Below, piece after piece: positions 1,241-49,356 of a DNA stretch of 64,000 nucleotides. Position 1 is the stretch's first letter. Every line of letters begins with the position of its first letter. Made by a program: the position numbers and the translations under genes. The notes beneath the pieces are model-generated. The model did not search any database. It saw nothing but the letters and a program-made list of their open reading frames with translations, and had not been told where the DNA came from. Origin of the DNA: Loxodes magnus (taxonomy: Eukaryota; Ciliophora; Karyorelictea; Loxodida; Loxodidae); assembly GCA_946699065.1 (NCBI GenBank), contig CAMPDV010002120.1, positions 1 through 64,000 of the forward strand. Reading direction: 5' to 3'.

Positions 1241-2812
1241 ATGTTAAAAATGCAAGAAGTTGATCAATATAATCGAAAAGGGAATTGTTTATTAAAACTA
1301 GGAAAGTTTCTTGAAGCAAATGAATGCTTTGAAATAGCTATTGCATTAAATCCTAATTAGGCAGCTGCATATCATAATAAAGGACAAGTACTGGAAAAAC
1401 TAGGTAAATATAATGAAGCTATCTAAAGTTTCGATATAACACTTAAACTTGGTTCTACTGATTCAAAATCCTAAAATTTTTCTCTCTCTAAGCAAGGAAA
1501 ACATCTTGAATCTATCTAGTGCCTTAACAAAACTATCTAGCTTGATCCTTAGTTTACGGAAGTATATTAACGAAAAGGTCTGGAGCATCAATCTTACAAT
1601 CAGAATAAAGAAGCACTTGATTGGTTTAATTAAGCACTTTAATTTAATAAAAATGTAGAAATTCCCTAAGCTAGAGATATTATTTTACCTGCCTAAGTAA
1701 AAAATAAAATAGGTATAGAAGATATTTGACAATTCTTGATATAAAATGGTGGTAGTATAGATAGCTAATCTCAATTAAGAATATGAAACTACAAAGATTT
1801 AGTTCCTAATAGTAAATTTCTAAATACTTTATAAGTATTAGCTAAGGATTAATTTGGAACTATCTATTTTATTTCTATCAATAGATCTAATTATGCACTT
1901 AAAGTATTTACCTAATAAAGTGATCAGCAGAAACTAATAGATTAGTTCTATTTAGAATGCTAAGAACTTTTATATATAAGCAATTAAAGAGTTTAAAGAC
2001 TAGTAGGAGTTGCTATTGATACTTAAGAGTAATTAAATTACTAATTTTGTATTTTACTAGACTTTTAGTGTAATTGAACTTTATTCTAAATAATCCAGAC
2101 AAAGTAGTTATTTAAAGATAGTTAAAAACAATCTGCTACAAGATATTATTACAAACTTAATTTACTTAGCTAAATAGCAGAAGCTTTAAAGGTACTTCAC
2201 TCTAGAAACTTAATACATAAAGAACTAAAATCTCTAAATATTCTATTAGATAATGAAGACTCCCCAAAGATACTAATTTTTGGATTATTCGATAATAATA
2301 ACTGATTAACTAATATAGAATAAAGAGGATTACATTAGTGGATGGCACCCGAGCAGTTTGAAAAGAAAATTACCTAAAAGAGTGATATCTGATCTTTAGG
2401 TTGTATAGGAGTTGAGATATTCAATGAAGAAATACTTTATCCTAATATAAATGAATAAGAATAACTAAAATAAATAGTCTATATTAATAAAATGATTCCT
2501 ATGTTTTCAAACGAAATACTATAAGAATCTGAATTTACTGATCTATTCTACAGATGTCTAGCTTATGACTAGAACATTAGACCAAATATTGATATTTTTA
2601 TAAGTTAGATAGAAAGATTAAAGCAAAAGTGAAATCCTTAAAGGTTAGATAGAGATATAAGTTAGTAGTGATATAATAAAGGGATATAGGAAGAAATTGA
2701 TTATAGCAAGTAATATTAAAAGTAAGATTAGTAGAGCAGATAAGAATTAGGAATGCTAGAGACAAAATTTGAGAATTAGAAGTTAAGTGAAAGTAAAGAG
2801 AAGAAGAGTTGA
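1241..2812 (+). CDS. TPR / TKL-like pseudokinase, short-TPR form (copy A)
   Basis: Reads as one frame of 523 residues with TAA/TAG as Gln and TGA as Trp. Residues about 1-140 hold two clear TPRs and degenerate ones, starting with the family N-terminus (YNRKGN after M-L-K-M). A linker (VPNSKFLN) leads to a kinase domain with the lysine in YALKVF, then NLIHKELKSLNILLD, GLHQWMAPE and KSDIWSLGCIGVEIF. The catalytic Asp of HRD is Glu (HKE) and DFG is replaced by FGLFD, so phosphotransfer is doubtful and a scaffold role is inferred. The TGA at 2810-2812 matches the end of the family's conserved tail. ATG 1241 fits the family start. The copy B homologue has one more TPR but has lost this ATG. Confidence 0.8.
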
Positions 2813-3167
2813 AGAGTGAAACTTTTTGAATATTATAATATTATAATATAAAATTATAAATTATTTAAAAATATATCATTAACAAGCAAAAGCTAATTAT
2901 ATTCAAATTACTACTTTACTTTGCTTAAAATCTGTCATTTCGACTAAGCAAGAATTAATTATAAAGTTAAGATTCAATAATAAGTAATTCATAGTTACTT
3001 TATCTACCAATTTAATATCTCATTTTAATAAAAAATATCTCTATAAAGCTATATATTTTATCTCACTCCATCATCTTTCCTTTATTAGTTTAAAATTATT
3101 TAATGATTAATAATCCTGAAATAAATAGTATTATTACATTATTTTCTATTTATTTAAACTGGGAAAA
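2813..3167. other. Intergenic spacer
   Basis: AT-rich spacer between the pseudokinase gene and the coiled-coil gene. It contains no recognisable element. Copy B carries several small indels here. Confidence 0.4.
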
Positions 3168-4720
3168 ATGGAATCAATCTATAGAAATGCCAAAAGGTAG
3201 TTCTTATTTTAGATCATTGTACTGGATTTAAAACTCAGCTTAGCTTACAGGTATGGTGATAGTTATTAACTAAATATTGATAATCTAGTTCTAGTTTTTA
3301 TTTCTAACCTCTTCATTATAATCATTTAGAACTTGCTTATGAACCCATTTACTATGATTTAGGTCCACTTAGTTTAAGTCTTTTGATTAGGTATATTAAA
3401 GCTTTTAGGATAAACTTTATAAGTTTCAAAGAAGGGAAACTTATCATCTCATCTTTGAATTCATAAAAGTTAATTAGCTTTACCTTCTTATTTGCGTTTT
3501 TCAGATGATTGCTCTAATATAAAAATTAAAGAAGCATAATCTTATTTTAAGTTACTAGAGAAAAAGCAGGCATAAAAAAAGTATCAAGAGTCTTCTTCTC
3601 CCCACTTACAAAACTAATAAAGAACCTAATAACTAGAATAAACACCTCCTAAAGTAATAAAAATAAAGGAATCTAATATAATAACAGGAAAAGAACTTCC
3701 ATCAAAGATAGTTAAAAAGGAAATAAATATTTAACAGTTAGTATTTGAAATATCCAATCTCTAGGAAGAGATTAAAGTGCTTAAGCAGGAAAATTAAGAA
3801 CTAAGAAACTTATTATAGCTTGGATAAGATAACTTAGAGAGATTAGAATTATTAATTAAGAAAGGGAACTACAAGCATATTGGAACATTTAAACTGAACA
3901 TAGATAAGAAACAGCAAGGCTTGGAAATATTGTATAAAAACAAGAGTTGGAGTTTATTAAGCAAAAAAATATTAGCACAAACATAACTAATTAGACAAAT
4001 TAGATGGAATTAGAATAAAAAGATTTTATAAATCGAAAATCAATCAGGTAAGTAAGGAAGAAATGCTATTACTGTAAGAGTAAGTGACATTTGTACAAGA
4101 ATTGCTAAAAATTTTAGAATTTCAAGAAAAAATTTTGGCGTAAAGAATAAGAAAAATACTAGAGGCTCTATTACAACTAGCATGAAGATATTTACAGAAG
4201 AAAATGATGTGAAGTACCTTTTGAAATAAAAAGAACAAGAAACAAAGAAACTGAGAAGACCTTAGTGAAGATAATTTCATTAGAAAGTCTAGAATGATGA
4301 GAAGTATTGCTGATAAAACAACTTATTTTAAACGGTGTCCAGATTGGCACTGTTGAACATTTTAATTTAATTATCATTAGAAGAAAGGGAGTTTTGATTT
4401 TAATACTAAGGAATATTCTAAAGAAGCTTCTAACTACTAAAAAGACATGCTCTAATATAGGACTTATTTAAAAGCATTTTAGTGAAATATAGATTTTTTA
4501 AACTAGCTTCTAATATACTAAGTTTATCACAGCAAAGGATTAACTATAACCATAATAATAAAAATTAGAAAACTTAATATTATTTCATTTCTTACTTGCT
4601 AATAAACTTAAAAAAGCATTTAGTTCAATATATTAAAGAGTATTCATTAAGGATAAAACTGAATCAGCCATAAAGTACTGTGATAAAAATAGATTATAGC
4701 TAATTATTTTGAATTAAGAG
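3168..4720 (+). pseudogene. Coiled-coil protein gene, frameshifted (copy A)
   Basis: From ATG 3168 one frame runs 366 residues to TGA 4266-4268. The middle is a convincing heptad coiled coil (EISNLQEEIKVLKQENQEL) preceded by K/Q-rich sequence and followed by basic sequence. Comparison with copy B (55572 on) shows one-base differences near 3520 and 4153-4156, where copy B keeps another frame, and near 4266, where copy A keeps the better one. Past 4268 a Cys/His/Trp-containing stretch (FKRCPDWHCW) reads well in a third frame to about 4.6 kb. The ancestral protein was therefore probably longer than either copy now encodes. The first about 130 codons resemble the head of the P1 relative at 50158, which suggests a mosaic. 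No family recognised. Confidence 0.4.
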
Positions 4721-4825
4721 CAAAAATGATAAATCTAAATAGTTTGAATCTTAGTAATTATAGTTCTGAATGCTAATCTAACTTCATTTAATAAATACTT
4801 AAATACTTATATATAAACCTTAAAA

Positions 4826-6806
4826 ATGTCAGAAGCTGATTAGTGTAATCGAAAAGGGATGTAATTAGTCAAGCAAGGGGAACTACCTGAAGCTATCAGC
4901 TACTTTAATATAGCTATTGAAATAAATCCATACTTAGGATCTGCCTACAATAATAAAGGTTATGCACTAGATTAATTAGGTAATTACGATGAAGCTTTAA
5001 AGTGCTACGATATAGCTCTTAGACTAAATTCTAGAAAGGCAAATTTCCATAACAATAAAGGACTTACACTGAAAAAGATAAGAAAATATAAAGAAGCTAT
5101 ATAGAGCTATGATAAAGCTATTTAAATAGATTCTAATTATACAGCCGCCTATACTAATAAAGGATTTGCTTTAATTTAACTTGAAAAATACAATGAAGCT
5201 ATTATATGTTATGATTAAGCTCTTAAACAAAATTCTAGTGATGTAAATGTCCATAATAATAAAGGTTATGCTTTGTAAATGTTAGGTAGATATACTGAAG
5301 CTTTATAGAGCTATGATTTAGCTCTAAGATTAAATTCTAGTAATGTATTTGTATACTACAATAAAGGAGATACTTTGATTTTATTAGGTAGATACAATGA
5401 AGCCATTGAAATTTTAAAACTAAGCTATTAAAATTGATTCTTCTTTTTCAGGATTATATTAACTTAAAGGTCTCTCACTCTTTAAAATAGGAAATCACCT
5501 TGAAGCTATCTAATGCCTTAACTATGCTATCTAGCTTAATCCTAATTAAGCAAAAGCTTGATATAACAAAGGTTTAGTTCATTAGGCTTTGAATGAGAAT
5601 CAAGAAGCACTATAATATTTCACTTAGGCACATTAACTAGATCCTAAATTAGAAATTCCTCAAATAAGAATTATTAACGTAGAAGCCTAAGTAAAAAATG
5701 AAATATCAATAGAAGATATTTGATAGTTACTATAATAAAATGGTGCTAGTGTAGATAGCAGATCTAGTTTAAGAATATGAAACTATATAGATTTAGTTCC
5801 AAGTTCTCAGTTTCTAAGCAACTTATAAAAATTAGCTTAAGATTAATATGGAGCTTTTTATTTTGGTTCTATTGATGGATCTTATTATGCATTAAAAGTA
5901 TTTAACTAAAAAGAAGATCTGCAAAAAACTATTGATTAGTTCTACTTAGAATGTAAAGAACTTTTATCACTAAACAGCTTAAGAGTTTTATAACTTAAGG
6001 GAGTTGTTATTGATACTTAAGAATAAGGAAATTACAACTTTTGTCTTTTATTGGACTTTTAGGTTAAAGGAAGCTTGTTCTAATAAATTTAGACAAAGTA
6101 ACTATTCAAAGAAAGTCAATAAGGATCTAATACGAAATTTTATAGGAAATTATGCTTACTTAGTTAAATAGCAGAAGGCTTAATGGCTATTCACTCTAGA
6201 AACTTAATCCACAAAGAAATGAAATCTATTAATATTCTATTAGATAATGATTACTAGCCTAAAATAGTAATTTTTGGATTATTCGATAGTACTAACTGAC
6301 TAACAACATTAGAACTAAGAGGCTTTCATTAATGAATGGCACCAGAATAATTTGAAAAGTAGGTTACCTAAAAGAGTGATATCTGATCTTTAGGTTGTAT
6401 CGGAGTGGAAATATTCAATGAAGAAATACTTTATCCAAATATAAATGAATAAGAATAGCTAAAATAAATAGTTTATATTAGTAAAATAATTCCTTAGTTT
6501 TCAAGCGAAATATTATAAGAACCTGAATTAACTGATCTTTTCTACAGATGCTTAGCTTATGACTAGAACATTAGACCAAATATTGATATCTTTGTAAGTT
6601 AGGTAGAAAGATTAAAACAAAAGTGAAACCCATAAAGATAATAAGAAGCTATAACTTAATAGGGTTAGAATAAAGGGATAAAGGAAGAAGAAGGATTTAA
6701 AAAATAATATTAAAGTCAAGAGTAGTAGAGAGCATCAGCAGAAGGGTTACAAGAGATATAGTTTGAGAATTTGAAGATAAGTGAAATTGAAGAGAAGAAT
6801 AGCTGA
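4826..6806 (+). pseudogene. TPR / TKL-like pseudokinase with one frameshift (copy A)
   Basis: Starts at ATG 4826 with the family N-terminus (MSEADQCNRKG). About eight TPRs follow (units such as YNEAIICYDQALKQNSS), then a linker and a kinase domain with YALKVF, NLIHKEMKSINILLD, GFHQWMAPE and KSDIWSLGCIGVEIF. HKE replaces HRD and FGLFD replaces DFG, so it is predicted to be catalytically impaired. The span is 1981 bases, not a multiple of three. One extra A near 5416-5419 breaks the frame, where copy B has the intact reading (ILNQAIKID). The rest is open to TGA 6804-6806, after the conserved family tail. It is either a recent pseudogene or an intact gene with an assembly error in an A run. Confidence 0.75.
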
Positions 6807-7310
6807 TAAATAAAGTTGTTTGAGGATGATATTATTAAATCTTATTAAATAATTTGCTGTCTTAAGTAATAAAACTATAAAAGTATGCATTATCTACATT
6901 AATATATGGTATGATTATTTTACTAAAAGAATTACAAATAAAGTGAAATAAACATTTCTACTATTTTTATTCCTAAGATCAGCTTCTTATTAGATTTTCA
7001 TGATATCGTTTAAATAACTTTTTATGGGAAAAAATGAATCATAACATAAATTGTATATATATGATAACTAAAATACTTAAAAGACATTAAGATAGTTCCT
7101 TTCCAATTAATTTCTATATAGAAGTCTATTTAATAAAGAGACTTTCAGTATCTATTTTCGGGTTAATTGAAAAAGAAAGAAACTGAAATGAGTAATATAT
7201 GATTAACCATAAAAATTAGTCTTATCAGTCTTTTAGTAGTTTCAGTACTATTAATTTGAACTAGATTCGTATTTATATCAACTTACCTAGATAAAGGTAT
7301 AGTTCTTTTC
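6807..7310. other. Spacer, no gene recognised
   Basis: AT-rich spacer of about 500 bases between the pseudokinase gene and the TPR remnant. Nothing in it could be tied to a domain or a paralogue. Confidence 0.4.
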
Positions 7311-8140
7311 GGACTTGATTAATATGAAGAAGCCCCAAAATGCTGCAATAAATGTATCTAATTGGATCCTAATTTTGTTGAAATATATATTTAAAGAATA
7401 ATATTCTAGTAAAGTAAAAAATCTAAGAAACCATAGAATGCTCTAATATAGCTAATAATGTAGATACTAAAAAAATATAAACCTGATTTATTAAAGGAAA
7501 AGCTCTTTGTGAAATCAATTAATACAAAGAAGCAGTTTAAAGCTTTAGTTGTGAAATTGAACTTGACTAAAATCATGCTTAAGCTCATGTACTTAAAGAA
7601 GTTGCTCTTATTGGAATAGAAAAGAAAGCAGAAGCTGTTGAATAGATTAACGAGTTCATTTTACTAGATCCTCATCTAAACTCATATTATGAAAGGATTG
7701 CATCTTCTCAGTTTAGAAAAGAAAGAAGAATCTATTAAAAATTATAATAAAGCTATAAAAAGTAATCCTAACAACGAAGAAGCTTTATTTTGGAAAGGAA
7801 TTATACTTTAAGAATTAGAATAGTAGGAAGAAGCTATCCAATGCTACAATATGGTTAAGTGATTTGATTCTAATTTTGTTGATTCGTAATTTTAGAATGG
7901 ATTAGCTTTTTTAAAATTCGTAGATATTGAGAAGAAAATGAATGCTAGAACTTAGTATTTGATTCTAATTTAAAGCAATTTCAGTCTATCAAAGAAAGTA
8001 ATTTTTGTTTATCAGAAAAGCAAGAAGAAGATTTAGTAAAATTGTTGAACTAATCTGGTCCTAATTATATAAAGGCATGTATTATCAAGTAAGTTGCTCT
8101 TTGCTATTTATAAAAGAATCTCTTAAATATTTAAGCATGA
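7311..8140 (+). pseudogene. TPR-repeat gene remnant (plus strand, copy A)
   Basis: TPR-like units read on the plus strand in pieces: QYEEAPKCCNKCIQLDPNFV, then in another frame LCEINQYKEAVQSFSCEIEL, then KEESIKNYNKAIKSNPNNEE. Copy A lacks five bases near 7670 that copy B retains (59.8-60.5 kb copy reads LLDLNFIQTH there), while copy B lacks one base later in EEAIQCYN. Frames change at least twice, no kinase domain follows, and no start was found. It looks like a decayed TPR gene of the same broad family. It ends tail-to-tail with, and overlaps by about 56 bases, the minus-strand TPR remnant. Confidence 0.55.
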
Positions 8141-8740
8141 TTATTGAATTTATAGGTTCTTTTTATTTTTCTAGCTCAATCAACGCATATCCATTATTAT
8201 TATAGTATATTGCCTTATTATTTTCCAATTTAATAGTTGTCTCAAAGCACTATATAGCTTGGATCTAATTTAATAGCCTTATTATAGATCTGTATAGCTT
8301 CTTCTATTTTGCATGATTTTTAAAGTGCATCTGCCCTATTACTATAGTAAATGGCTTTATTAGGTTATATTCCAATAGCTTTTTCATATCTTTATATAAA
8401 TTTGTTGCATTAGTCCTATTTATAAAGTAAATATCCTGTCTTATTATAATAATTTGAATTCCCAGACTATAGTTAAATAGCTTAGTCATAACTCTGTATA
8501 GTTTGGTCATATTTGTTTAGCCTGTAAAAAGTATCTCCTTGATTATTATGATATATTGGTTCACTAGGATCTTCATTAATAGGTTGGTTAAATTTGTGAA
8601 TTGCTTGAGTATAGTTAGTTTATTTGTATAACTATATTCCTTGATAATTTTTGAAGCAGGTCCGATTTTGTGAATTATAGCAATTAGGTTTAAGATTAAA
8701 GACTTAGAGATGATTAATTAGTTATAGGTTTAATTAGTAA
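8085..8740 (-). pseudogene. TPR-repeat gene remnant (minus strand, copy A)
   Basis: On the minus strand from about 8740 down, TPR units read cleanly: NYTQAIHKFNQPINEDPSEP, LNKYDQTIQSYDQAIQLQ, and SCKIEEAIQIYNKAIKLDPS. The frame then jumps at about 8255 with loss of part of a unit, continuing as QAIQCFETTIKLENNKAIYY and ending at a TGA at 8087-8085. The same jump is present in copy B (60489-61144), so it predates the duplication. No kinase domain and no convincing start codon. It is most likely a TPR-only pseudogene. Confidence 0.55.
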
Positions 8741-9804
8741 TAATTAAGTAATCTTATATCTTTATTTCTATTTTAACTTTTAAACTCTTTAGTGATTCTT
8801 CATTTGAACTAATTACTCTTAATAAGAAAGCTAATAAGCTGGCTATTTAATAAGAATAGTTCTAAATTAATGAATTAAGGAGTAAAATTGTATAGATTAC
8901 TTCTAGAGATATATTAGTTGAGTGTTATAATAGAACTAGAATAGCTAGAATTTGATTAATAGAAGTATTAATGATAGTATACAAATTAGTATCTTAGTTA
9001 TATTTTATATTACATCTATATAGACTAGTTATATGTACTTGGATAGTTACTTTATATATCCATTTACTAGTCTAATAATTAGAAAATTATTTAATTTCTT
9101 ATTTAGAGACTTCATTTTTAAATATTGGTAAATGATTCTAATATTTTATGTTTTTGGTACTTTAATAAGCATTAAGTATCTCTTTAATATTTTGGATTAA
9201 TTAGTTTATTCCTATATTTTTTAACTGCTTACCTTATTTTCATTTAGAGTTTTCCTTTAATATGAAAGCTTTTGATCACTTTAGTTCAAATTTTAGTTCA
9301 AAATAATTTCATCTGATTTAGACTCTTAATCTGTCTCTTTAAACATAAATTAAAAATATTGAAATTTAAATAGTTTTAAAAAGTAGCTGTCTATTGCAGA
9401 GAATCAAATTAGATGCCATCTTTCTGAAACTCTTAGCCTCTAAATTTAAATCTGAATAGATCTAATAATTATGCTTGAATTTAGATTAGACTAACTCCTA
9501 TAAGTCTGTAAAATAAATTTAAATAGACAGTATGTATTAATTTAGTTTTTATAGCTAAGAATATATCAATATTATTGGTTAACTTTACCTTTCATTCAAT
9601 TTACTTTCCTTTAATGCAATAACTCTTTTAATATATCATTATAAACCATCTTTACCTTAAGTATCTTAAACTAATTATTTATTAGAATCTCTAAGATCAG
9701 TTTATTTACCATTGCTCCCTATTTATAACTGAAAAATAGGAATAATAAAAGCAAAATCTTAATTCAGACTGATTTTATTAAATTTAAAGGAATAACACTG
9801 TAAA
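8741..9804. other. AT-rich spacer of about 1 kb
   Basis: No domain and no supported reading on either strand. Indels between copies A and B fall freely here. It lies upstream of both the minus-strand TPR remnant and the plus-strand P1 gene, so it should hold their control regions, but no motif was recognised. Confidence 0.4.
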
Positions 9805-11556
9805 ATGTTGAAAGACGAACTGAGTTTATTCAATAGTTTAGCAAAGTTGTAGGATTAGAACCTAAATTTACTAATTCTTATTTCTGCCCTAAAATAAGCA
9901 CTTAAATAATTGAATAGAAATGCTGAGGCAATCTTTAACTTTAACCAAGATATCTTATTTATATCCTTTTAAGAGTTTAGACCTTTAGCTAGAAACATTT
10001 GTACTGATATATTTAGGAAAAATCAAGAATCAGTTATGAATTTTAGCAAACCTATTTAACTTTTCCAAAATAAATAGCTTATTTATAGCCCTAAAAGCTT
10101 AACCAAAAATAAAGATTAAATATAAAAGCAATAGAAAAGCTTGCTTTATTTTAAGCAGATTATTTGCAAGCTATATAAGTTTAGAATACTATCAAACATT
10201 ATATGGATTCTAGACCTTTCTTAATTTGCAGATCTATTCTCAAGAGTACAAGTAAAGAACCAAATTCTTATTTATAGTTCCTAGAATATCCTCTCTTAAA
10301 TTTTAAAATACTCCTTTCTGAAAAAACCATATGAATGTTCAGTCCTTCATCTAAGAAGAAGGAAAAGTGATAAAACTGGGATGATTTATCAATAGCAAGT
10401 TCGATTTTACTAGTTAGTAGTCATTCGAAAATAAAAAATGAAAATATTAGTAAAGTTATTCTAAGGTAGTTAATGCTTTTTTCCATTCCTCACGAGACAA
10501 ACTTAAATGTAAATAGTTTGATTTACTTGATATGCAACAAGGGTACATTCCTATGGTCTATGTAGTAATATTTAGAAGATAAAAATTATAATAAAAGTAA
10601 GATTTAATAAAAAGCAATTAGATGAGAACTTAATTTTACTAGTCAGTGATATAAAAGGATTGGAATCAAGTATATTACTTATTTTATTGATGGAAGCTGT
10701 CCTTCAGATTAAATAATTACAGATTTTCTAAAATCTGCAGAGATAGAATTTTATAAATAAAGAAGTAACTCACTTTAAAGCAGCTTAAGTAGAGCCTGAA
10801 CTTTAATACCATTATTTATTATGAAATATTACAAACTTACAGCTGGAACTTCTAGAATGAACCCAATATGCAGACCAAGATTCATTTTATGTTACTAGTA
10901 ATAGTTTTTAATCACAAGAATATTATAAAATAGAGCTATTTTAGTAAAGTATTTCTTTGGAATAACAGTAAACTTTTATTTTTTTAATCGAATTTAACTT
11001 AAATAAGAAGCTGACTAATATCAGATTAGAACATAAGAGATTTAGCTGAAGAGAATTAATCACCATGGAAAATTACGAAAACTATTTAAAGGCTGAGAAG
11101 AGAATAATTTCACAATATCGAGACTATGGTTAAGCAGAAAGACTAATTTAGGATATAAAGAAATAATAAATTTCTAACTTGCCTGTTAAATACAACCCAG
11201 AAAGATTAAGTTTTTCTATAGTAATAGAAATACCAAAGGATAGTGAATAGTGCTAATCTAAAGAAATATACACTATGATCTATAGCTTAGACCTGTATAA
11301 AGATTAATTACAAAATAAAAAACAATTTTTTCTAGCATTCACAGTCTAATTTGCTCGTATCTTAGAGAAAATTTCCTAACTTTAATATTAAAAGGTGACT
11401 GTAATTTCAGAAAAAGAACTTTGTAAGCAAATATTCTTAAGTTACAACTCTCAGTCAAAGACGAATCAAGAAAATGTTGCATTAAAAATACGAAACTCTA
11501 AAAATACAGAATGTCGAGCTTTAGTCTAGAACAAAATGGCAAGAAAAGACTTATGA
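9805..11556 (+). CDS. Multi-copy unrecognised protein P1 (copy A, best-preserved)
   Basis: One frame of 583 residues from ATG 9805 (MLKDELSLFNSLAKL) to TGA 11554-11556. The frame is supported by relatives elsewhere in the window. The block NKQLIY..K.L.KNK plus KLY..RILPNIIWI recurs at 44.8 kb and 24.3 kb, and QLVV[IL]R.QKM.IL recurs at 44.4 and 24.0 kb. In one aligned stretch, differences from the 23-24 kb copy fall mostly on third codon positions of this frame. Near residue 435 it reads IISQYRDYGQAERLI, followed about 30 residues later by RLSFSIVIE. That recalls the YRDG strand of PIWI domains, but the match is weak and no full catalytic set was placed. The 3' end overlaps the convergent P2 gene by about 90 bases. 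Function unknown. Confidence 0.45.
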
Positions 11557-13244
11557 TGGAAACTCCTGAGATTTCCCAAATTATCTAACTAGATAGATAC
11601 TCACGTTCATTCTAAACCTAGGACTATTTCTGTACTTCATTTTCTTCTATTCTTTGTCATCTCTCATTTTAATTTAATTATTTCAGTATTATATAGTTAA
11701 ACCACTTATAATCATTCAATAACTAAATTTGAATTAATAGCTACCTTTTTTCATTTTGCTATATTCAAGTATTATCTTATAATTAGATATTATTTAGGCA
11801 TATTTTTATGAAGAATTCATTACTCTCAGTTAAATGAGATTTTATTTTCCTTTCTATATTAATGTTTTCATTTATTTGCCTTTCTTAAACCTTCGATCTC
11901 TCTTAATTTTCTTAGGATTTATAAAAATCTTTTCAACTACTTCCTATTTTGTGATTTTATCTAATTTCTGCTCAGAAACTTTTATTCTTTCTTCATGCTT
12001 TCCTTTTTTTCTAAATTATAATTCAGAAATTCTTTTTGTTGCTACTATTTTTCTTAAACATTAATAGCACTTTATGGCTTTGTCTAATCTCTCTTATGCT
12101 TCAAAAGTAAAACTCAAGTTTCATTAATAAATCTTCATAGTAATTTGCCTATTTGCTAAAGGTTAAGTACTTACTTCTTTTTATTTAGATTATATTTTCT
12201 TTAATCTCTTTGATATTGCTTTAATTAGAACTTCTTAAAAAATCGAGACTAAAAGGTATTTAATTTATGATAATCTGCAGTGGATATAGATTTTACTTCT
12301 TTTAAGTGTCCTTTAACAATTATATCATTTAAGACTAGTTCTATATCTAATATGCTAAGGTCAAACTGTCTATTTTTACTTATTCTTTCTGTGATTACTT
12401 TTAGATAAGATTTAACTAAGCTTTTATAATAAGTATTTATTTCACATTCTAAGGAGGCTTTGTCTTCCTCATCAATTTTTAATTTAATTTCATAGATTGA
12501 TTATATAAAAAAGAGACTGCAGAACTGTTCAAAGTATTCTAATATGAATCTCTTTGCTCTAATTAGTCTTTTATTGATTGGGGCAACTATTTCTTATTAT
12601 TTACTAAGAGGCCTTGTTTTAAGTCTATTATAGTCTTAGGAGTGTTCTCAGAAAACGTATTTTAATTTCTTGATTAAATAAAGCTAACTTAACTCTTAAA
12701 TTCTTTGTTTGATTTCTAATCAGAGTGAGATTTATCAGTAATAACCTCTAATAATCCCTTATATTTCTTGGCTTGTTTATTAGTTTCTCTTTTTTAATAA
12801 GAGTCTAAAATTTCTAATGATCCAATCTTTCTTCATATTAGCTTGTTCGCAAAAATTAGATATTTTTCTCTTTCTTGATCATTGTTTTATGTCTACCTTA
12901 TAAATCTTCTCATCCTTTAGCGTAGTTTTTCAGTTATTGATTGATCGATCTAAAAGACAATGTCAAGTTAAACTCTCTAGATAGTATAAATTTGCTGGTA
13001 TTGCTGGTCTTAGACTTAGCAGAAGCATTTGAATAGATAATTTATGCTCTTCCTCTTCTAAAATCCTTTTTATGCTTATTATTATTTTTTTTGGACTAAG
13101 TTATAAGGTTAGATTAAATATAGTTAATCTTTAATACTTATGAGAGGTTAATTAAATCTAGCTTAGTATTTGAATGGTTCTTTAATTTAATTCTAGCAGA
13201 TATTAATTTAATAGAAGTAAACTGTAATATTAGACATTTTATTA
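11466..13244 (-). CDS. Unrecognised protein P2, convergent with P1
   Basis: On the minus strand one frame runs from about 13.24 kb down to TGA 11468-11466, roughly 590 codons. It has protein-like composition (for example SLRPAIPANLYYLES, ILDIELVLNDIIVKGHLKEV). The C-terminal half is independently supported by a relative on the plus strand at 22.4-23.1 kb. Both read NKISF[NK]WEQWIL, KWKK, IN.NLVIE.LQ.VQ, TKNRRK and WTWV, with several TGA codons as conserved Trp. No in-frame ATG was found at the expected start, so the 5' end is open and may lie further upstream or after an intron. The tail overlaps the 3' end of P1. Family and function not recognised. Confidence 0.45.
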
Positions 13245-15836: not shown

Positions 15837-18121
15837 TCAAATATTCTATTTTCCTTTTTCATTCTTCTTATTCGAATTTTGTCTTTCATACTATTCATTT
15901 ACATCCTTCATATTCTCTTTCTCTTCCATTGTTGACTACTGAGAAGACTCCATATTATAAGCTTAATCTTCTGTTTTATTCTCCAACTACTAGAAGTTTT
16001 CCTACTACACCTAATTGATATTCTACTCTTCTCTTCTAGATATCTTGCGTGAAATTCCCGCCTATTCATTTTGCTAAGCTTATTGAAGTTGCTCTTTTTA
16101 TTAGTTTTAGCTCTTCCACTTTTTTTTAATTTAATCTACTTATTTTCTAAAGCTATAAATATCTGGTCTTTTGGACTAATCATAGCTAAAGCATTAAAGC
16201 AATAGATGAGCTAATTCTGGTACTTAAGTTAACTCATTTGAAAACGAGGGGATTTTATTATCCACGCAAATAGGTTTCGTGAATTATACCAAATTATTTA
16301 AGTCTGGAAATGGTAAACGCTCATTGAAAATTTCTACTGCTATACAAGCAAGAGATCATATATCACTTTTCTAACTCACTTTGTTATTAAAATCTCAGGA
16401 GCCATTTATTAAAGAGATCCTCTAGCTTTTAATGTAGAAGTGACGTTAGCTTCACTAACTATTTCAAAGTCTGCAATTTTTGGAGAATCACTATCATCTA
16501 ACAAAACATTCTAAGATTTAAGATCTCTATGAACTAAATTTTTGGAATGAATAGCTTGTACACCTTCAGCAATTTAGCAAAGCAAATTTAGTTTGCTGAA
16601 AAACTTTATTGGGGATTCTTTTGACCAATCACAAAGTAATTGTTTATTTTATATTATTTTGAATAAGCTTCCCTTAGATATATAGTCAGTTAAGAGACAA
16701 AATGCATAATTTCCTTATTCTGAAGCATCAATAGAGACTCCTGTAATTCTTAGAACTCTTTGATTATTCACCGATAATAAAGCTTTGCATTCTAGATAAA
16801 AATTGTCTAATAGCTTTAGTAAATCTTCTTATGAGTTCAATTTTTTAAGAGCGTATTTTTATCCTTCTATCTTTATAAGATAAACAATACTATATCCACC
16901 TTTATCTAAGATTTTCAGTTTAGATTAAAATTATTAATTAGGAATTAAATCTTTGTAATTTTAGATTCGTATTTGAGATCTTATGTCCTATCCAGCTTCA
17001 TTTTGTTTTAAAAGCTATCAGATATCATCTAAAGTTACTTGCTAAGAGTTTTATAATTTTTTATTTATTTCAATTATTTAAGGAATTGAAAGCTTAGAAT
17101 CAAGTTATTTAGCCTTGTTATAACTTTCAAGAGCTTCTCTATATTAGCCTAGAATTTGCAAAGCAACACCTTTACTATAAAAGAGTTTAGCATTTATGGG
17201 CTCAAGTTATATAGCTATATTATAGCAGTCTATTGCTTCTTAGTATCTCTTCAAACTGTTTAAAGAGTTTCCTTTGTTAACATGCGCATAGACTAAAGCT
17301 GAATCAAGTTGAATCGCTATGTTATAACAGTCTATCGCTTCTTAATATCTTTATAAGCCGTTCAGAGAATCTCCTTTATTAACATGCGCATAGACTAAAG
17401 TAGAATCTAGTTGGATAGCTAACGTTAAGCAGTTTATCGCATCTACATATCTTCCCAAATTGTTCAATGAGTCTCCTTTATTGCTATATATAACAGCCTT
17501 ATTTGGATAAAGCTATATAGCTATATTAAAGCATTCTATAGCTTTTTAGTATTATTCCAATTTGTTATGAGAGTTGCCTTTGTTATATTATTCATAAGCA
17601 TAATTCGAATCAAGTTTGATAGCTATATTAAAACACTCTATTGCTTCTATGTATTTCTCCAAGATATTAAGAGAAATTCCTTTGCTACAGTGTGCAATAG
17701 AGTCTTTAGCATCAAGTTTGATTGCTAAATTATAGCATTCTATGGCTTCTGTATATCTTCCCAATTTTCTTAGAGTATCCCCTTTGTTATTATATAAAAT
17801 TGGCCTATTTTTATCAAGTTTGATAGCTTTATTATAGCAATCTAATGCTTCTTAATATTTTTGCAATCTTCCCAAAGAGTTACCTTTGTTGCTATATGCA
17901 GCAGCAATATTTGGATCAAGTTAAATAGCTATATTAAAGCATTCTATAGCTTCTTAGTATTTCCCCAAATGATTAAGGGCGATCCCTTTGCTACATCTAG
18001 CAAAAGCATTCTTTGGAGCAAGTTAAATAGCTATGTGATAACTGTCTACTGCCTGTTAGTAATTGCTCTAAATATGAAGAGCGATTGCTTGGCTAATTTG
18101 GAAGTGGACTTTTTGAGACAT
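15837..18121 (-). pseudogene. TPR / TKL-like protein kinase with intact HRD, one frameshift
   Basis: Starts at ATG 18121-18119 (MSQKVHFQISQAIALH). It carries about ten TPRs (units such as KYQEAIECFNIAIQLDPN), a linker (VTLDDIWQLLKQNEAG) and a kinase domain. The domain shows the glycine loop ILDKGGYSIVYLI, the lysine in YALKKL, NLVHRDLKSQNVLLDD and KIADFEIV (DFE instead of DFG), then QQMAPEI, SDIWSLACIAVEIF and RPDIYSF. Unlike its relatives here it keeps HRD with the catalytic Asp, so it may phosphorylate substrates. The span is 2285 bases. A single missing base near 16375-16384, just after MAPEILITK, shifts the frame, and everything else is consistent to TGA 15839-15837. The C-terminal tail is Q/E/N-rich and unlike the tail of the pseudokinase group. 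The missing base is either a real lesion or an assembly error. Confidence 0.8.
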
Positions 18122-32200: not shown

Positions 32201-35200
32201 TCTAGATAACATAATAAGTCTAAGAATCAATAAATCTGAAGTTAATTAAGACTTGGAGTAGAATTAGGAAACAAATCTCGGCTATTGTCGAGAACCTCGT
32301 TTTAGATAACATGTTCAGTCTGAAAAGCCATAATATATGTACTTTTAGAATTTTAGAAGAGCTTCTGTTTTTATTTTTGATGAACCTTAGAACTCAGTTC
32401 TTGATAACGTATCAATCCTTGAAAGCTTAAAAAAGAAATAATCAAAAGGTTAGAGTTGAATTTTGAGGTTAGAACCTTTAACCTTGTGAGCTCTGATCCT
32501 ATCACATAAATATCTGAGAATTCGAAAGAGTTAAATACTTAAAGATTCGAAGTTGAACTACGAATCGAGTCTCCGTTCTACTTGAGAGCTCTGCTCGATT
32601 ATCATAATAAGTCAGAGAATCCATGAGACTGAAGTACTTAAAACTTTGAATTCGAACTTGTAGTTAAGTTTCAATTTTACTCGAGAGCTCTGTTTATCTA
32701 TCATATCGATTCTGAGAAATTTAGTATCTGAAGAACTTACAGAATTAAAATTTAACTTTGAGTTAAGAATTCGTGATACCTGACATCTCTTTAGATAACA
32801 TATAAAATCTTAGAAATCATAAATCTGAAGTATCTAAAGAATGAAAGAAGAATTTAAATATTCAACTTCGATGAACTTGAGAGTTCTGTTCAGATCACAT
32901 TTAAGGTCGAGAAAGTTTTAAAATTAAGTACCCAAAGAATATGAGTATAACAAGAAGTCAAAACTCGATTTAAGTAAAGAGTTCTGTTCCAGATAGCGCA
33001 ATAAGTCTTAGAAACAAAATTATATAGTAATTTGAGACTTGGAGATTAGATAAGTTACAAGTCTCGGTTATAGTCGAGAGCTCTGCTCAAGTCCAAAAAG
33101 CAGTTCTTTAAGATAAAAATCTGAAAGACTTAAGACTAGGAGTTATACGAGGATCTAGACTAGCTTCCACTCGAGAACTATTTATAGTTCTCAAATTATA
33201 TCTTAGAAGAGATAAAGCGGAAGTACTTGAAGACAATGACCTGAAAAAGGAGTTAAGTATCGATTTGATTTGAGAGTTCTGTTCCGGAAAACATTACAAG
33301 TCTGAAAAAAAACAAATCTGAAGTAATTTAAGATTTGGAGATAGATAAGTGCAAGTACGTGACTCTTCTCGTAATCAAATTGCAGTTCTTAGAAGTTCAA
33401 AACAAAATTACTTAACTAATTGCAGAAGAATAGTATCAGAGTACTGTTTCTATCGAGAGCTATTTAAATTTCTTAAATAAAAACTTGGAAGCGAGAATGC
33501 GGAAATTCAAAAAGATCATGAGTATAACAAGGAGTCAAGTATCGATTTAAGTTGAAAGTTCTGTTCCGGAAAACATGACAAATCTGAGATTTAACAAATC
33601 GGAAGTAATTTAAGTCTATGAGATAGATAAGAAAGAAGTTTTGGGCAATTTCGAGAGCTTAGCACTTAATCGAATTGCAGTTCTTTATGACAAAAATTTC
33701 AAATACAAAAAGACTTGGAGTAGTACTAGGTGTCAAGATTCGCTTATAATTTAGATCTATTTATAGTCTCAAATCATATCTTAGAAGCGATAACGCGGAA
33801 GTGTTTTGAGACTATGAGTAGGAAAAGAAGTTAAGTTTCGATTTAAGTTGAGAGTTCTGTTCCATATGGTGCTATATTCTTAGAAACAAATGTTTAATCA
33901 ATTTGAGACTTGAAGATGAATCAAGAAACAAGTCTCGGATATAATCGAGAGCTCTTCTCGTAATCAAATTGCAGTTCTTAGATGCTACAAATATAAAGTG
34001 CTTAAATACTTAGAAAGAACAAGGATCCAAATATAGTTTCAACGCGATAGCTCTTTATATTCCTAAAATTAAATCTTTGATGCGATAAAGCGAATTACTA
34101 TAAATTGGAGTAGAAAAGGAGTCAAGTCTCGATTTAAGTTGAAAGTTCTTTTCAAGCAAAATGACAAGTCTGAGAATCAACAAATCTGAAGTAATTTAAG
34201 ATTTGTAGATAATAAGAAACAAGTTTCGTGCAAAGTCGAGAGCTTTGCACTTAATCGAATTGCACTTCTTAGAAGTTACAAATCTGAAGTACTTAAAGAC
34301 TTGGAGAAAAATAAGAAGTCAAGTATAGTTCCACGCAAAAAAACTTTATAAATACAAAACAAAATCTTAGATACGATAAAGAGGAAATATTTTAAGACTA
34401 AGAGTAGATCAAAATTCAAGTCTTGGTTCTACTCGAAATCTCTTTATAAAACTAAAACCAAATCAAATAAGCGATAAAGCGGAAATACTTTGAGACTTGC
34501 AATAGAAAAAGGAGTTAAGCTTCGATTTTAGTTTTGAGCTCGTCTCTAGATGACATGGCAGTTCTTGGAAGCTTTAAAGCTTAAAACTTACAAGCTTAAA
34601 AATTAACTTTCATTTAGATTCCGTTAAATTCGATAGCTTGTTATGGATTAATATAAAATCTTAGAAACCATAAATCTGAAATAATTTAAGAATGAAAGAA
34701 GTATTTCGGTTTTTTAACTTCGATGAACTAAGAGTTCTGCTCTAGATCACACTTAAGGTAGAGAAGGCTTGTAACATTAAGTACTAAAAGAATATTAGTG
34801 TAACAAGGAGTCAAGACTCGGTTCTACTCGAGAGCTCTGTTCAAGATCAAATGACAATTCTTAGAAACAATAAATCTGTCGTAATTTAAGACTTTGAGTC
34901 GAACTAGAAGTTAAGACTCCGTTTTTCTTAAGAACTAAGTTCTTTTTCTCAAAATTAGTCATAGAAGCGAAAAAGCGGAAGTACTTGTTTACTTAATTTT
35001 TGCTTCGTTCTAAACCATTATACTTGAGTTCTCATAGAAATATTGATAAGCGATAAAGCTAGTTTTCGTATCGTGGAAACTTGAACTTAAAGAAATGAAA
35101 GAATTCTACTTGAAGTTCTTAACTATTTCTCAAAATAAGATTGAGTCTCGATTAAGCTGAAGAACTTAAGAGTATGAAATAGAGCTTAGAGTTAAGAAAA

Positions 35201-35290: not shown

Positions 35291-35379
35291 TATAGTCATG
35301 TTTTAGCACTAATAGAATCGTTATGTTTTCCATTATTAGCAAAAGCAAGTCCCTTTTTAGTGGTAGATTTTCTTATCTT

Positions 35380-37376: not shown

Positions 37377-40064
37377 TCAACTCTTCTTTTCTTCAATCTC
37401 ATTTATTTTTAAACTTTCAAACTTGAATTCTTATGAGTCTTCCTCTAATAAAAAAACTTAACCTTAACTTTATTATTTTATACTTTATTCTTACTTCATT
37501 TTTTTAGTTTGACCCTACTAACTTATATCTCCATCTTATCTTTATGGATTTCACTTTTATTTTAATCTTTCTATCTAATTTATAAAATAATCTATATCAG
37601 GTCTAATGTTCTGGTCGAAAGCTAAGCATCTGTAAAATAGATCAGTTAATTCAGGTTCTTATAGTATTTCGTTTGAAAACCTAGGAATCATTTTATTAAT
37701 ATAAACTATTTATTTTAGTTATTCTTATTCATTTATATTTGGATAAACCATTTCTTCATTGAATATCTCTATTCCAATACAACCTAAAGATCAGATATCA
37801 CTTTTCATAGTCACATTTCTTTCAAATTATTCAGGAGCCATTCATTGATGTAATCCTCTTTATTCTATTGTTGTTAACCAATGAGTAGAATCGAATAATC
37901 CTAAAATAACTATTTTGGGTTAATATTTCTTATCTAGTAGAATATTTAGAGATTTTAGTTCTTTATGTATTAAGTTTCTAGAGTGAATAGCCTTTAGACC
38001 TTCTGCTATTTAACTAAGTAAATTAAGTTTCTAGTAATATCTTAAAGGAGATCCTATTTTACTTTCTTTGAATAGCTACTTAGTCTAAGTTTATTAGAAT
38101 AAACTACCAAATCACTAAAAATCTGTTAAGAGGCATAAATTGTAACTTCCTTGTTCTTAAGTATCAATAGCAACTCCTGTAAGTCTTTAAACTCTTAAGC
38201 TGTTTATTAATAGAAGTTCTTTACACTCGAAATAGAACTAATCTAATAAAATATGAAGATCAGTATTTTAGTGAAATACTTTAAGAGCATAAGTAGACCC
38301 ATCAATAGTAATAAGATAGACAATTCCATATTAATCTTTAGCTAGTACTTAGTAGTCATCTAGAAATTATATATTAGGAATTAAGATTCTATAGTTCAAT
38401 ATTCTAATTTTAGAATTATTATCATAACCAGCACCATTTTAATATAAAAGCTGTCAAATATGATCTATAGTAATGGAATTTTATTATTATATATCTAAAG
38501 AATCAATATCTATTTAGGGAATTTTAAACTAGGTGTCTAATTTGTTAGCTTCAATAAAACATTAGAGAGATTCAATAGTTTTGTTTAAAGCTTACAAAGA
38601 TAAACCTTTGTAGTAATAAGCTACTGCATAATTTGAATTAAGCTAAATAGCTGTGTTAAGACACTAGATTGCTTCAGAAAAATTATTTAGCTAATAAAGT
38701 GAATAAGCTTTATGTTAGTAAAAGTCTGGAAGAATAGAATTTAGCTGAATAGCTTTGTTAATGCTTTAAATCGCTTCTTAGTATTTCCCTAACTTTTCCA
38801 ATGCTGATCCTTTGTTACCATGTACAGTTGCATTATTAGGGTCTAGTTTAAGAGCTACATCATAGCTCTAAATCGCTTCTTAATCTTTCCCTAACTTTTC
38901 CAATGCCGATCCTTTGTTATTATGTGCAGTTGCATCATTAGGGTCTAGTTTAAGAGCTACATTATAGCTCTAAATCGCTTCTTAGTATTTCCCTAACTTT
39001 TCCAATGCCGATCCTTTGTTATTATGTACAAGTGCACTATTAGGGTCTAGTTTAAGAGCTACATCATAGCTCTAAATAGCTTCTTAGTATTTCCCTAACT
39101 TTTACAACACCGATCCTTTGTTACCATGTACAGTTGCATTATTAGGGTCTAGTTTAAGAGCTACATCATAGCTCTAAATAGCTTCTTAGTATTTCCCTAA
39201 CTTTTCCAATGCTGATCCTTTGTTATTATGTACAGTTGCATTATTAGGGTCTAGTTTAAGAGCTAAATCATAGCTCTAAATAGCTTCTTAGTATTTCCCT
39301 AACTTTTTCAATGCCCATCCTTTGTTACCATGTACAGTTGCATCATTAGGGTCTAGTTTAAGAGCTACATCATAGCTCTAAATAGCTTCTTAGTATTTCC
39401 CTAACTTTTCCAATGCTGATCCTTTGTTATTATGTACAGTTGCATCATTAGGGTCTAGTTTAAGAGCTACATCATAGCTCTAAATCGCTTCTTAGTATTT
39501 CCCTAACTTTTCCAATATCGATCCTTTGTTACCATGTACAGCTGCATTATTAGGGTCTAGTTTAAGAGCTACATCATAGCTCTAAATCGCTTCTTAGTAT
39601 TTCCCTAACTTTTTTAATGCCAATCCTTTGCTATTATGTACAAGTGCACTATTAGGGTCTAGTTTAAGAGCTAAATCATAGCTCTAAATAGCTTCTTAGT
39701 ATTTCCCTAACTATTCCAATACCAATCCTTTGTTACCATGTGCAGTTGCATCATTAGGGTCTAGTTTAAGAGCTACATCATAGCTCTAAATAGCTTCTTA
39801 GTATTTCCCTAACTTTTCCAATGTAAATCCTTTGTTATTATGTGCAGCTGCATTATTAGGGCCTAGTTTAAGAGCTACATCATAGCTCTAAATAGCTTCT
39901 TAGTATTTCCCTAACTTTTCCAATGCTGATCCTTTGTTATTATATACAGCTGCATAATTAGGATCTAATATTAAAGCTATATTGAAATACTCAATAGCTT
40001 AAAGATAATTTCCCTCTTTGAATAATTAGAGTCCTTTTCGATTATACTAAGTTGCTTCTGACAT
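37377..40064 (-). CDS. TPR / TKL-like pseudokinase, long-TPR form (about 15 TPRs)
   Basis: Intact: ATG 40064-40062 to TGA 37379-37377 is 2688 bases, 895 residues, in one frame. The N-terminus is MSEATQYNRKGL. About 500 residues of TPRs follow, of which about 12 consecutive units are nearly identical 102-bp repeats (KYQEAIQSYDVALKLDPN). A linker leads to the kinase domain: YALKVF, HSRNLIHKELKSLNILLD, QWMAPEQFE, SDIWSLGCIGIEIF. HKE replaces HRD and GLFD replaces DFG, so it is predicted inactive. The tail EFKFESLKINEIEEKKS is shared with the other family members. It is the best evidence in the window for the altered code: many TAA/TAG as Gln, TGA as Trp, and TGA as the final stop. Confidence 0.88.
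38757..39960 (-). repeat. Homogenised 102-bp TPR repeat array inside the gene
   Basis: About 12 head-to-tail units of exactly 102 bases (34 codons), differing at only a few positions each. Changes are clustered at the same variable sites (for example GCTGATCC, GCCGATCC, ATCGATCC). The frame is kept throughout. Units at either end of the array are more divergent. This is the pattern of recent unequal exchange or gene conversion within a coding array. Confidence 0.9.
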
Positions 40065-41806: not shown

Positions 41807-42239
41807 TTAATAGATTCGGAGAGTACACTACTATAATGGCTCAGAGAAATACATTTCAAAATCGATTCTAATAGATTTGAATCCTCTGTTAATTGTAATA
41901 GTTAAATGCAATAAATATAATAAAATTAAGCAAATATAATGGTAACTAAAGTGAAGTTTACTAAATATTAGGAGTTGCTATCAGATTGAAAACTGAATTT
42001 GGTCATTATAAGTGGAGTGAAGAGCTCTAATAGATGCCATATAATAAATAAAAGCCTATTAGAAAAAAGGGAGCTGGGACACCAAAAAAAGGTTTCTAAT
42101 TTAGTTGCTAGCATATCTTAAAGAACTCTACTTATAAATAACTAGGATTGTAATTTATCTCCTCATTTAATTTAATTATTTCCTATTACACTTCTATTTA
42201 CTTTACCTTTTACTTATGATAAATTGACATAGCTTTTGA
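41807..42239. other. Spacer before the second satellite array
   Basis: About 430 bases upstream of the minus-strand gene. Nothing recognised apart from the gradual onset of satellite units. Confidence 0.35.
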
Positions 42240-43969: not shown

Positions 43970-44389
43970 TAATATTAGCTTCTTAATTTAAGCATAAGCT
44001 ATTAAGGAATTAAATATATGAATTAAAAGTAGGTAAATTATTGTTTAGGCATATAAAAATAAAGATTGCTTTTAAAATTAAAATTTAATAAAATCTAAAT
44101 AAATTAGGCGGGAAATAAATGTTAATAGTTTTGGTTCAAAAATTAGATAGATATAACTTATATTAATTATTGAAATAATAGAGATAATTAAATATATAGC
44201 TTTTATATATAGTGGTATAAAGAAAATAATCAGCTTAGTTGTATTGAATGTAATAATTCTTAAGTCTTTTAAATTAAGTTTATATCTTATAAAAGTTAAA
44301 GATTTCTTAAAATCTGATTGATATAAATGTTATACTTATTTATTCCTTTGATTAATTGCACTTCAATATTTAAACTTTAATTTTTCCAT
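43970..44389. other. AT-rich spacer
   Basis: About 420 bases between the P3 gene and a convergent P1 remnant. Nothing recognised. Confidence 0.35.
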
Positions 44390-44959
44390 TATAACTACCT
44401 TAGAAAACTTTGCTAATATTTCCATTTTCTAATTTCTTAGAACTACTAGCTAGTCAAATTTAGCTATAGTTCAGTTATTCCAGCTTTATCTCTTTTTCCG
44501 CTCTTAAATACAATGAAGGGCTGAGCATATTTCTCTTTCAGAAAGGAATATCTTTAAAATTGAAGAGAGGAAACTCTAGGAACTTAAAATAAGAATATGC
44601 TTCTTTTTTTATAATCTTAAGAGCAATCACTGTAAAAGGGCAAACTAAGAAAGCTCTGTAATCCATATAATATTTGGTAATATCCTAAGCATATATAGCT
44701 TCCAAATTTGACTTTTAAATAAGGCAAGCTTCTCTATAGCTTTTATATCTTTATTCTTGTTAAGCTCTTTAAAATGATAAATAAGTTATTTACTTTGGAA
44801 AACTTATCTTTCATAAGAAAAGTCTTATTTTTTATTATTTCATTAACTATCTATGAAAGCTTAGAGTGATAGCAAGTGATACTTTCTTGAGATTCTAAAA
44901 GAAAATTTCCTATAATGATCTTTTATCGAGTCTTGCACTTATAAATGTAGAGATTTGCC
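44390..44959 (-). pseudogene. P1-family 5' half (minus)
   Basis: Reads on the minus strand in the same frame as P1: SKQLIYHFKELNKNKDIKAI, QIWKLYMLRILPNIIWITEL, ILILSSQSFLSSILKIF and FDQLVVLRNQKMEILAKF. The match stops at about 44.39 kb, leaving out the C-terminal half. At its 5' side it abuts the retroelement at about 44.96 kb. The conserved reading is what fixes the strand and frame of the whole P1 family. Confidence 0.5.
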
Positions 44960-46830: not shown

Positions 46831-47171
46831 TAATTAAGTTGTTCTGAATTTAGTTTTGCGATATCATAAAGAGCAATGAATGCACTTAATATAATAAAAA
46901 TGAAAGTGATAATAAAAGTGAGATGGGTTTAAGCATATAGTTAGTATTGTAATTTAAAATAGCTTATTGCAATATAAAAGAATAAGCTATTAATTTATTA
47001 AAAAGCTTTCTTTAGTTAAATATTTTAATAAATGTATGGAAATAATTAGATTAAACTAAAATTACAAAGAAAACTAAGATACTTCTTTAAATCCTTTTCT
47101 TATAAACAAGAAATTAGATTAAATAAATTAACAATCTATAAATTAAATTATTATAAGATACCATTTTCAAA
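46831..47171. other. AT-rich spacer upstream of TPR gene
   Basis: About 340 bases between the retroelement tail and the ATG at 47172. No motif recognised. It should hold the promoter of the TPR gene. Confidence 0.35.
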
Positions 47172-49356
47172 ATGTTAGAAGCTTCTTAGTACATTTAATA
47201 AGGAATCTAATTAGTTAAATAACCAAATTATCAAGAACCATTTTAATATTTTAATATTGCTGTCATATTAGATCCTAATAATGCAGCTGCATATTATAAT
47301 AAAGGATTCACATTGGGAATATTAGGAAAACACAATGAAGCAGTTCAGAACTTTGATTTAAGCCTAAAGTGTAATCCTAAGTATGTAGATGCACTTTATA
47401 ATAAAGGAGTTGCACTGAAAATCTTAGGAAAATTCAATGAAGCAGTTCAGAACTTTGATTTAGCTATTAAACTTGATCCTAATAATGCAGATGAATATCT
47501 ACATAAAGGAGTCGCACTAGAAAAACTAGGAACATTTAATGAATCAATTAAAAACTATGATTTAGCCCTAAAGTGTGATCCTAATAATGTAGCTGCACAT
47601 TATAATAAAGGAGTTGTTCTGTAAGAACTAGGAAAAAATAATGAAGCAAATCAGAGCTATGATTTAGCTATTAAACTTAATCCAAGCAATGCAACTGCGC
47701 ATTTTAATAAAGGAGTCACATTGGAAAAATTAGGAAAATTTATTGAAGCAATTCAGAGCTATGATTTATCTCTTGAACTTGATCCTAACAATGAAGATAC
47801 GCATTATAATAAAGGGATATCTTTGGAAAGTTTAGGAAAACATGATGAAGCAATTCAGAGCTTTAATGTAGCTCTTAAACTTGATCCTAGCCATGTGTAT
47901 GCACATAATAATAAAGGAATCGCACTGGAAAAATTAGGAAAGCCCAATGAAGCAGTTAAAAGCTATAATTTAGCTATTTAATTCGATTCTTCTTTTTCAA
48001 AAGCGTACAAAGAGAAGGGCTTTTTTCTATATATTCTAGGAAATTATCTTGAAGCCATCAAGTACCTTAACAAAGCTATTTAACTTGATCTCAACTATGC
48101 AGAAGCATATTACGACAAAAGTCAAGTTCATAAAGCTTTAAATCAGAACCAAGAAGCACTTGAGAGTTTTATTAAAGCAAAAAAAATTAAATCCTTAACT
48201 GAAAATACCCTAAATAAATAATATAATTTAAGATACATTTGTAGAAAATACTATTACTCTAGATAATATTTGATTTCTTTTAAATTAAAATGGAGCAGGT
48301 TAAGATAGCTAATCTAATATAAGAATATGAAACTATAGAAATTTAGTTCCCAACAATCAGTTTCTAAATGATCTATAAGTATTAGCTAAAGATTAATACG
48401 GAACTACTTATCTAATTACTATCGATGCATCTTTTTATGCTCTTAAGATATTTAACTAATAGAGTGATTAGCAGAAACTAATAGATTAGTTCTATTTCTA
48501 ATGCAAAGAGATACTTTTAATAAACAACTTAAGAGTTTAAAGAATTTTAGGAGTCGCTATTGATACTTAAGACTAAGGAAATTACAACTTTTCCTTGTTA
48601 TTGGATTTTTAGTGCAAAGGAAGCTTGTTCTAGTAAATCTATGCGAAGTAGTTATTCAAAAGCAGTCAAAAATGACCTGATTTAAGATATTATTAAAAAC
48701 TTAATTTACTTAACTAGATAGCAGAAGGTATAAAAGCAATTCACTCTAGAAACTTAATTCACAAAGAATTGAAATCTCTAGATATTCTATTAGACGAAGA
48801 GTATTCCCCAAAGATACTTCTTTTAGGATTATTTGATAATAATAACTAATTAACAAATATAGAATAAAGAGGATTACATTAGTGGATGGCTCCTGAGCAT
48901 TTCGACAAAAATGTGACTATGAAAAGTGATATCTGATCTTTAGGTTGTATTGGAATAGAGATATTCAATGAAGAAATGGTTTATCCAAATATAAATGAAT
49001 AAGAATAACTAAAATAAATAGTTTATATTAATAAAATGATTCCTAGGTTTTCAAACGAAATACTATAAGAACCTGAATTAACTGATCTATTTTACAGATG
49101 CTTAGCTTTCGACCAAAACATTAGACCTGATATAGATTATTTTATAAGTTAGATAGAAAGACTAAAATAAAAGTGAAATCCTTAAAGTTTAGATGGAATT
49201 ATTAGTTAATAGGGCTAGAATGAAGGGATAAAGGAATAAGGTCATAACATAAAATAACTTCCTTAAGAGTAGAAGATTACATCAGAAGGATATCAAGAAA
49301 CAAAGCTTGAGAATTTAAAAATTAATGATATTGAAGAAAGAAAAGTTGAAAAGTGA
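47172..49356 (+). pseudogene. TPR / TKL-like pseudokinase with one frameshift
   Basis: ATG 47172 (MLEASQYIQQGIQL) starts about ten TPRs (units such as KFIEAIQSYDLSLELDPN) reading without a break to about 48.2 kb. One extra base at about 48.21-48.23 kb shifts the frame. The second frame then gives the linker (LDNIWFLLNQNGAG, NLVPNNQFLND) and the kinase domain: NLIHKELKSLDILLDE, GLHQWMAPEHFD, KSDIWSLGCIGIEIF and FDQNIRPDIDYF, to TGA 49354-49356. HKE replaces HRD, the metal-binding Asn is Asp (LKSLD) and DFG is GLFD, so it is the most degenerate active site of the family here. The conserved tail KLENLKINDIEE is kept. Confidence 0.78.

Follow-up and report, generated by a model that had tools for sequence, protein, structure and literature searches.

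How are the three standard stop codons read in the genes of the window, the 64,000-base stretch of DNA analysed here? The first-pass annotation had read TAA and TAG as Gln and TGA as Trp, with TGA also serving as the only stop, which is NCBI table 27, and had proposed a karyorelict ciliate similar to Loxodes. Table 27 was reportedly found in Loxodes magnus and other karyorelicts by Seah, Singh and Swart in 2022. The window covers bases 1-64,000 of contig C2120, which is 78,969 bases long, and the assembly searched genome-wide had 7,843 contigs and 705,730,643 bases.

With table 11, no stop-to-stop frame of at least 150 amino acids was found across the 64 kb window, which says little alone because the GC content was 23-32% (in 2-kb steps). 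When TAA and TAG were translated as Gln, 37 frames of at least 300 amino acids appeared in the window; some of them overlapped on opposite strands, therefore open frames alone were no evidence. ARAGORN and Rfam searches of the window gave no matches. A diverged repeat array with spacings of about 98-100 and 295 bp was located at 30876-35200. There was also a direct duplication of about 11.6 kb, in which 1-11599 was present again at 52317-64000 with 97.8-98.5% identity, as a true repeat or an assembly overlap, and genes A and B are present twice for this reason.

Five kinds of genes (A-E) were found in the window, all with a kinase-like domain after the TPR repeats:

1250..2812, + strand: gene A, TPR repeats and putative pseudokinase domain read with table 27; terminal TGA 2810-2812, TGA of the SDIW motif 2390-2392
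1241, + strand: further in-frame ATG at the start of gene A
2630..2632, + strand: TGA at the Trp of K-W-N-P in gene A; the distinct paralogues B, C and D have TGA there as well
54134..55225, + strand: gene A', the other copy of A, over its putative pseudokinase part; it ends at TGA 55223-55225
4826..6806, + strand: gene B, TPR and putative pseudokinase; terminal TGA 6804-6806, SDIW TGA 6384-6386
57229..59207, + strand: gene B', the other copy of B; it ends at TGA 59205-59207
37377..40064, - strand: gene C, about 14 TPR units (102-bp tandem) and putative pseudokinase in a single frame; terminal TGA 37377-37379, SDIW TGA 37791-37793
47172..49356, + strand: gene D, TPR and putative pseudokinase; terminal TGA 49354-49356, SDIW TGA 48934-48936
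16344..18121, - strand: gene E, TPR and diverged kinase-like domain; SDI-TGA-SLAC with TGA 16356-16358

Pfam gave TPR and/or Pkinase matches in the six submitted stretches of A-E, with E values of 7e-30 and lower. The pseudokinase parts of B, C and D were 68-71% identical to that of A, and changes at third codon positions were more than those at second positions in all six pairs of A-D (57, 32 and 82 changes at the three positions for A/D, over 315 codons). Genes B, D and E each changed frame once in the assembly, near 5419, 48190-48230 and 16375, respectively. At this place in gene B, B' showed a one-base difference within a run of A, and for this reason an intron was rejected as the cause of the frame change. 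Gene B' changed frame elsewhere, and its stretch 58119-59204, read in one frame, failed to align at the start.

Kinases carry the consensus motifs HRDLKxxN and DFG. In the kinase domains of A-D (1721-2812, 5715-6806, 37377-38462 and 48265-49356) these places were occupied by HKELKS or HKEMKS and by FGL or LGL, and from their sequence the four domains look like pseudokinases. Gene E retained HRDLKS and ADFE. The TPR-pseudokinase family was hugely amplified genome-wide (150 matches were scored out of 3,723 candidates), and some contigs repeated the gene layout of the window exactly.

The Trp of S-D-I-W-S-L-G-C, annotated at first pass as TGA, was indeed TGA in six copies of SD-I-W-SLG (S codon at 2381, 6375, 48925, 54794 and 58777 on the + strand and 37802 on the - strand), and gene E, annotated at 15.8-18.1 kb, had KSDI-TGA-SLAC at 16344-16373 (-). 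The TGA of K-W-N-P, placed by the same annotation after the kinase domain, was likewise common to the four distinct paralogues A-D, and three TGA columns were shared by all of A-D. TAA and TAG stood where relatives had CAA and CAG, and TGA where relatives had TGG. The codon before MAPE in A, B, C and D was TGG, TGA, TGA and TGG, and the codon just ahead of that one was TAG, TAA, a Gln sense codon and TAG. Among the A-D pairings, TGA was opposite Trp in 52 of 69, TAA opposite Gln in 229 of 309 and TAG opposite Gln in 109 of 141, in an alignment built from table-27 translations, which leans slightly toward table 27. In four of the ten TGA columns in A-D a single gene had TGA and the remaining genes had Gly, Cys, Val or Gln, and TAA was opposite Trp in two places (D in the NNNqL column, and E before MAPE).

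The pseudokinase part of A-D contained 23 internal TGA against 3 TGG, and 150 TAA/TAG against 24 CAA/CAG. Trp was thus TGA in 23 of 26 codons there, compared with 37 of 124 in 48 kinase domains from the whole assembly, and the TAR share of Gln codons was 86% versus 65%. Fisher's test on TGA:TGG of 23:3 versus 37:87 gave p = 3e-8, which is too small because related genes were pooled.

The Pkinase model scored the pseudokinase part of A at 106.1 bits with table 27, which was the top score among the codes tried. TGA as Gly, Arg, X or Cys gave 102.2, 100.7, 100.3 and 98.4 bits, and TAA/TAG as Glu, Lys, X, Tyr or Leu gave 100.1, 98.9, 91.5, 87.9 and 81.0 bits. The TPR repeats did not discriminate. 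The annotation had placed TAA and TAG on Gln of the TPR consensus KYQEAIQ, and this spelling with TAA and TAG was present in gene C (37.4-40.1 kb). But TPR_1 scored the TPR part of gene C at 439.9 bits with Glu, 417.9 with Gln and 413.8 with Lys, and only Tyr and Leu fell below the E-value used. Glu and Lys fit these repeats as well, therefore KYQEAIQ alone fails to show Gln, and we rejected the TPR repeats as proof of it.

We then used a test in which the code was not assumed. The 48 best of 136 listed kinase domains were aligned as translations in which X replaced the three stop codons, and the score of each codon came from the residues that the other sequences had in its column. TAA (n = 221) gave Gln 91.1, Lys 63.0 and Glu 18.0; TAG (n = 115) gave Gln 58.8, Lys 29.3 and Glu 10.9; TGA (n = 28) gave Trp 84.6, with Phe next at 7.7. 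Of the sense codons, 60 had five columns or more and every one of these returned its standard residue; CGG had fewer than five. One Trp column held TGG in 30 kinases and TGA in 13. It means that the three meanings, Gln for TAA and TAG and Trp for TGA, were recovered without being assumed.

In the H3 gene L056 with TAA and TAG masked, 7 of 10 masked sites were on Gln of solved H3.3. The tails of the core H3 genes L052-L056 (GGKQPRKHLATK) differed from solved H3.3 in having Gln instead of Ala at 15 and His instead of Gln at 19, and the codon of Gln 15 in the five genes was TAG, TAA, CAR, CAR and TAG.

These data bear on three other readings of the codons inside genes. Table 6 has TAA and TAG as Gln and TGA as stop only, so that the TGAs in the window would be pseudogene lesions or sites of readthrough. 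The window family could suggest it, with its missing usual kinase motifs, its frame changes and its single-gene TGAs on Gly columns, but three TGA columns were common to all of A-D, and the Trp columns of kinases genome-wide also held TGA. Table 6 is therefore refuted unless all those kinases are dead, and we consider it hardly tenable. The reading of Blastocrithidia type, with TAA and TAG as Glu and TGA as Trp, gains from the higher Glu score in the TPR part of gene C, but Gln was far ahead of Glu for both codons in the masked kinases, Gln scored above Glu in the pseudokinase part of A, and the masked sites of L056 were mainly on Gln; the masked kinases and L056 refute it, and it is even less probable than table 6. 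Finally, non-coding AT-rich DNA could carry stop-like triplets by chance, and with low GC there are many such triplets in any frame, as in the frame counts of A. The Pfam matches to kinase and TPR, the third-position excess of changes in A-D and the genome-wide agreement of codon meanings over the 48 kinase domains refute it, and chance is the least credible of the explanations weighed here.

The codon which ends the genes was read at 90 gene ends in families with fixed C termini: 30 of 31 histone-fold loci, 20 of 96 actin matches chosen to span divergence, 20 of 21 dynein light chain matches (one interior match was omitted), and 20 of the 150 scored members of the window family, several of which were near-identical. 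TGA was present at the family end in 87 of the 90, with L057, L060 and L153 as the exceptions, and none of the 90 ends was a proven TAA or TAG end. In 28 of 30 histone-fold genes TGA was where the nearest relatives in the set end, or at most two codons away, including all five H3 genes ending ...GERT-TGA, all five H2A and all six H2B. All 20 actins had TGA no more than two codons from where the domain ends, for example IVHRKCF-TGA. Nineteen of the 20 dynein light chains reached TGA, 18 of them within two codons; in L143 TGA was at +6 after TAA at +4, and in L153, a weak match, TGA was absent in the 30 codons read. The actin matches included 43 full-length ones of near-equal score (E 1.1e-132 or lower), and many were on a few contigs (C266, C711, C707, C524, C437 and others), which is an amplified actin gene.

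That the window family ends at a TGA just after a conserved tail, as annotated, was confirmed: A, A', B, B' and C ended ...KS-TGA or ...NS-TGA, gene D ended ...VEK-TGA at 49356, and all 20 sampled members had TGA at 0-3 codons. Copies diverged by frame-changing indels just past the family TGA (A versus A', and L158), as expected for an untranslated end, and in recent copies short stretches of similarity continued past it. No TGA occurred in the stretch of 20 codons leading up to the terminal TGA in the 30 histone-fold loci and A-D, although Trp is rare in histones. The last 20 codons of the 29 histone-fold loci besides L060 had 0 TGA, 3 TAA and 6 TAG, which are small counts.

The clearest exception was one H3 variant gene:

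C327:221690-222100: L060, H3 variant

L060 had TAATAATAA at the expected family end, in the context GEKHLTDM-TAA-TAA-TAA, and counting from the first TAA the next in-frame TGA came only 168 codons on. L058, the nearest relative at 82% identity, had TGA at the family end, and L057 had TAA at the same position as L060 with TGA five codons later. The dN/dS of L060 was 0.012-0.042 against five relatives, with synonymous sites near saturation; L060 is strongly constrained and therefore not an old pseudogene. A near-identical second copy was not among the listed matches, the best other one being only 82% identical, and this option was rejected. We also rejected an intron there, since inspection by eye gave no short GT..AG intron that would join the end of L060 to a TGA.

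L060 and L057 are the points in favour of a Condylostoma-like code, table 28, in which each of the three codons is both sense and stop. However, 87 of 90 ends reached TGA and none was provably TAA or TAG, and the available parts of PMC11441545 give UGA as the sole stop; we regard table 28 as very improbable, and the choice of table 27 over table 28 in the first-pass annotation holds. From its sequence, L060 is a candidate UAA-terminated gene, the one clear candidate UAA end in the 90. Possibly UAA retains residual stop activity near mRNA ends, so that a few genes end at UAA, though we think this rather unlikely. A recent stop loss or a base error in L060 is at least as likely. For L. magnus the accessible text of PMC11441545 reports that UGA and UAA, and not UAG, are depleted for about 20 codons before the stop; a weak UAA stop would explain that UAA is depleted there and UAG is not.

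For table 27 with TGA in both roles, UAA, UAG and UGA would be decoded as amino acids by default, a short AT-rich 3' UTR would bring the poly(A) tail close to the true UGA, and eRF1 would outcompete the Trp tRNA only where a UGA lies near this tail. Default decoding, success of eRF1 near poly(A) and short 3' UTRs are described in the accessible portions of PMC11441545 and PMC4967479, and a Loxodes tRNA-Trp(CCA) with a 4-bp anticodon stem in those of PMC13092985 and PMC12005148. In the assembly, tRNA-Trp was absent among the tRNA loci examined, which were Lys and Ala only. One sequence made up most of the best 63 tRNA matches, tRNA-Ala genes lay close by, and tRNA-Lys(TTT) formed tandem arrays at C103:669738-672972, C78:681122-688206 and C158:171420-182004, with periods of about 527 and 1,752 bases. 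Two eRF1 genes were found 35 kb apart, L010 (C196:19713) and L011 (C196:54613). L010 matched solved eRF1 over residues 5-431 and ended DEDFL-TGA. Compared with human eRF1, L010 had E55 to A, T58 to R, S60 to Q and Y125 to F, at positions which we take to be the residues that read stop codons, and the Gln at 60 was itself encoded by TAA.

Taken together, the window is almost certainly from a karyorelict ciliate, most likely the Loxodes magnus macronuclear assembly, read with table 27: UAA and UAG as Gln, and UGA as Trp inside genes and as stop. The karyorelict origin proposed at first pass is supported, because the code found here is the one stated for Loxodes magnus in PMC11441545, whose accessible parts describe a macronuclear assembly of 706 Mbp, table 27 and UGA as the only stop. 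The observed code is correct, but it is already known for Loxodes magnus and karyorelicts, since that paper states it. There is no difference in code from that system, UAA/UAG = Gln and UGA = Trp plus stop being the same; L060 may be a gene in which the stop is not UGA. According to the available text of PMC4967479, Condylostoma magnum (table 28) likewise uses all three codons as sense with at least one also as stop; all three are stops there, while here TGA was found at 87 of 90 ends, with no proven TAA or TAG end. Blastocrithidia, as far as the accessible part of PMC12153298 goes, also has three reassigned stops with one dual, but UAR is Glu and UAA the dual stop there, whereas UAR is Gln and UGA the dual stop here.

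It means that table 27 with context-dependent TGA is needed to read the genes of this assembly, and this was verified from genomic DNA alone. Residual UAA stopping, if true, would place Loxodes between tables 27 and 28, and L060, if real, would offer a case in nature for seeing whether UAA still stops translation in a karyorelict.
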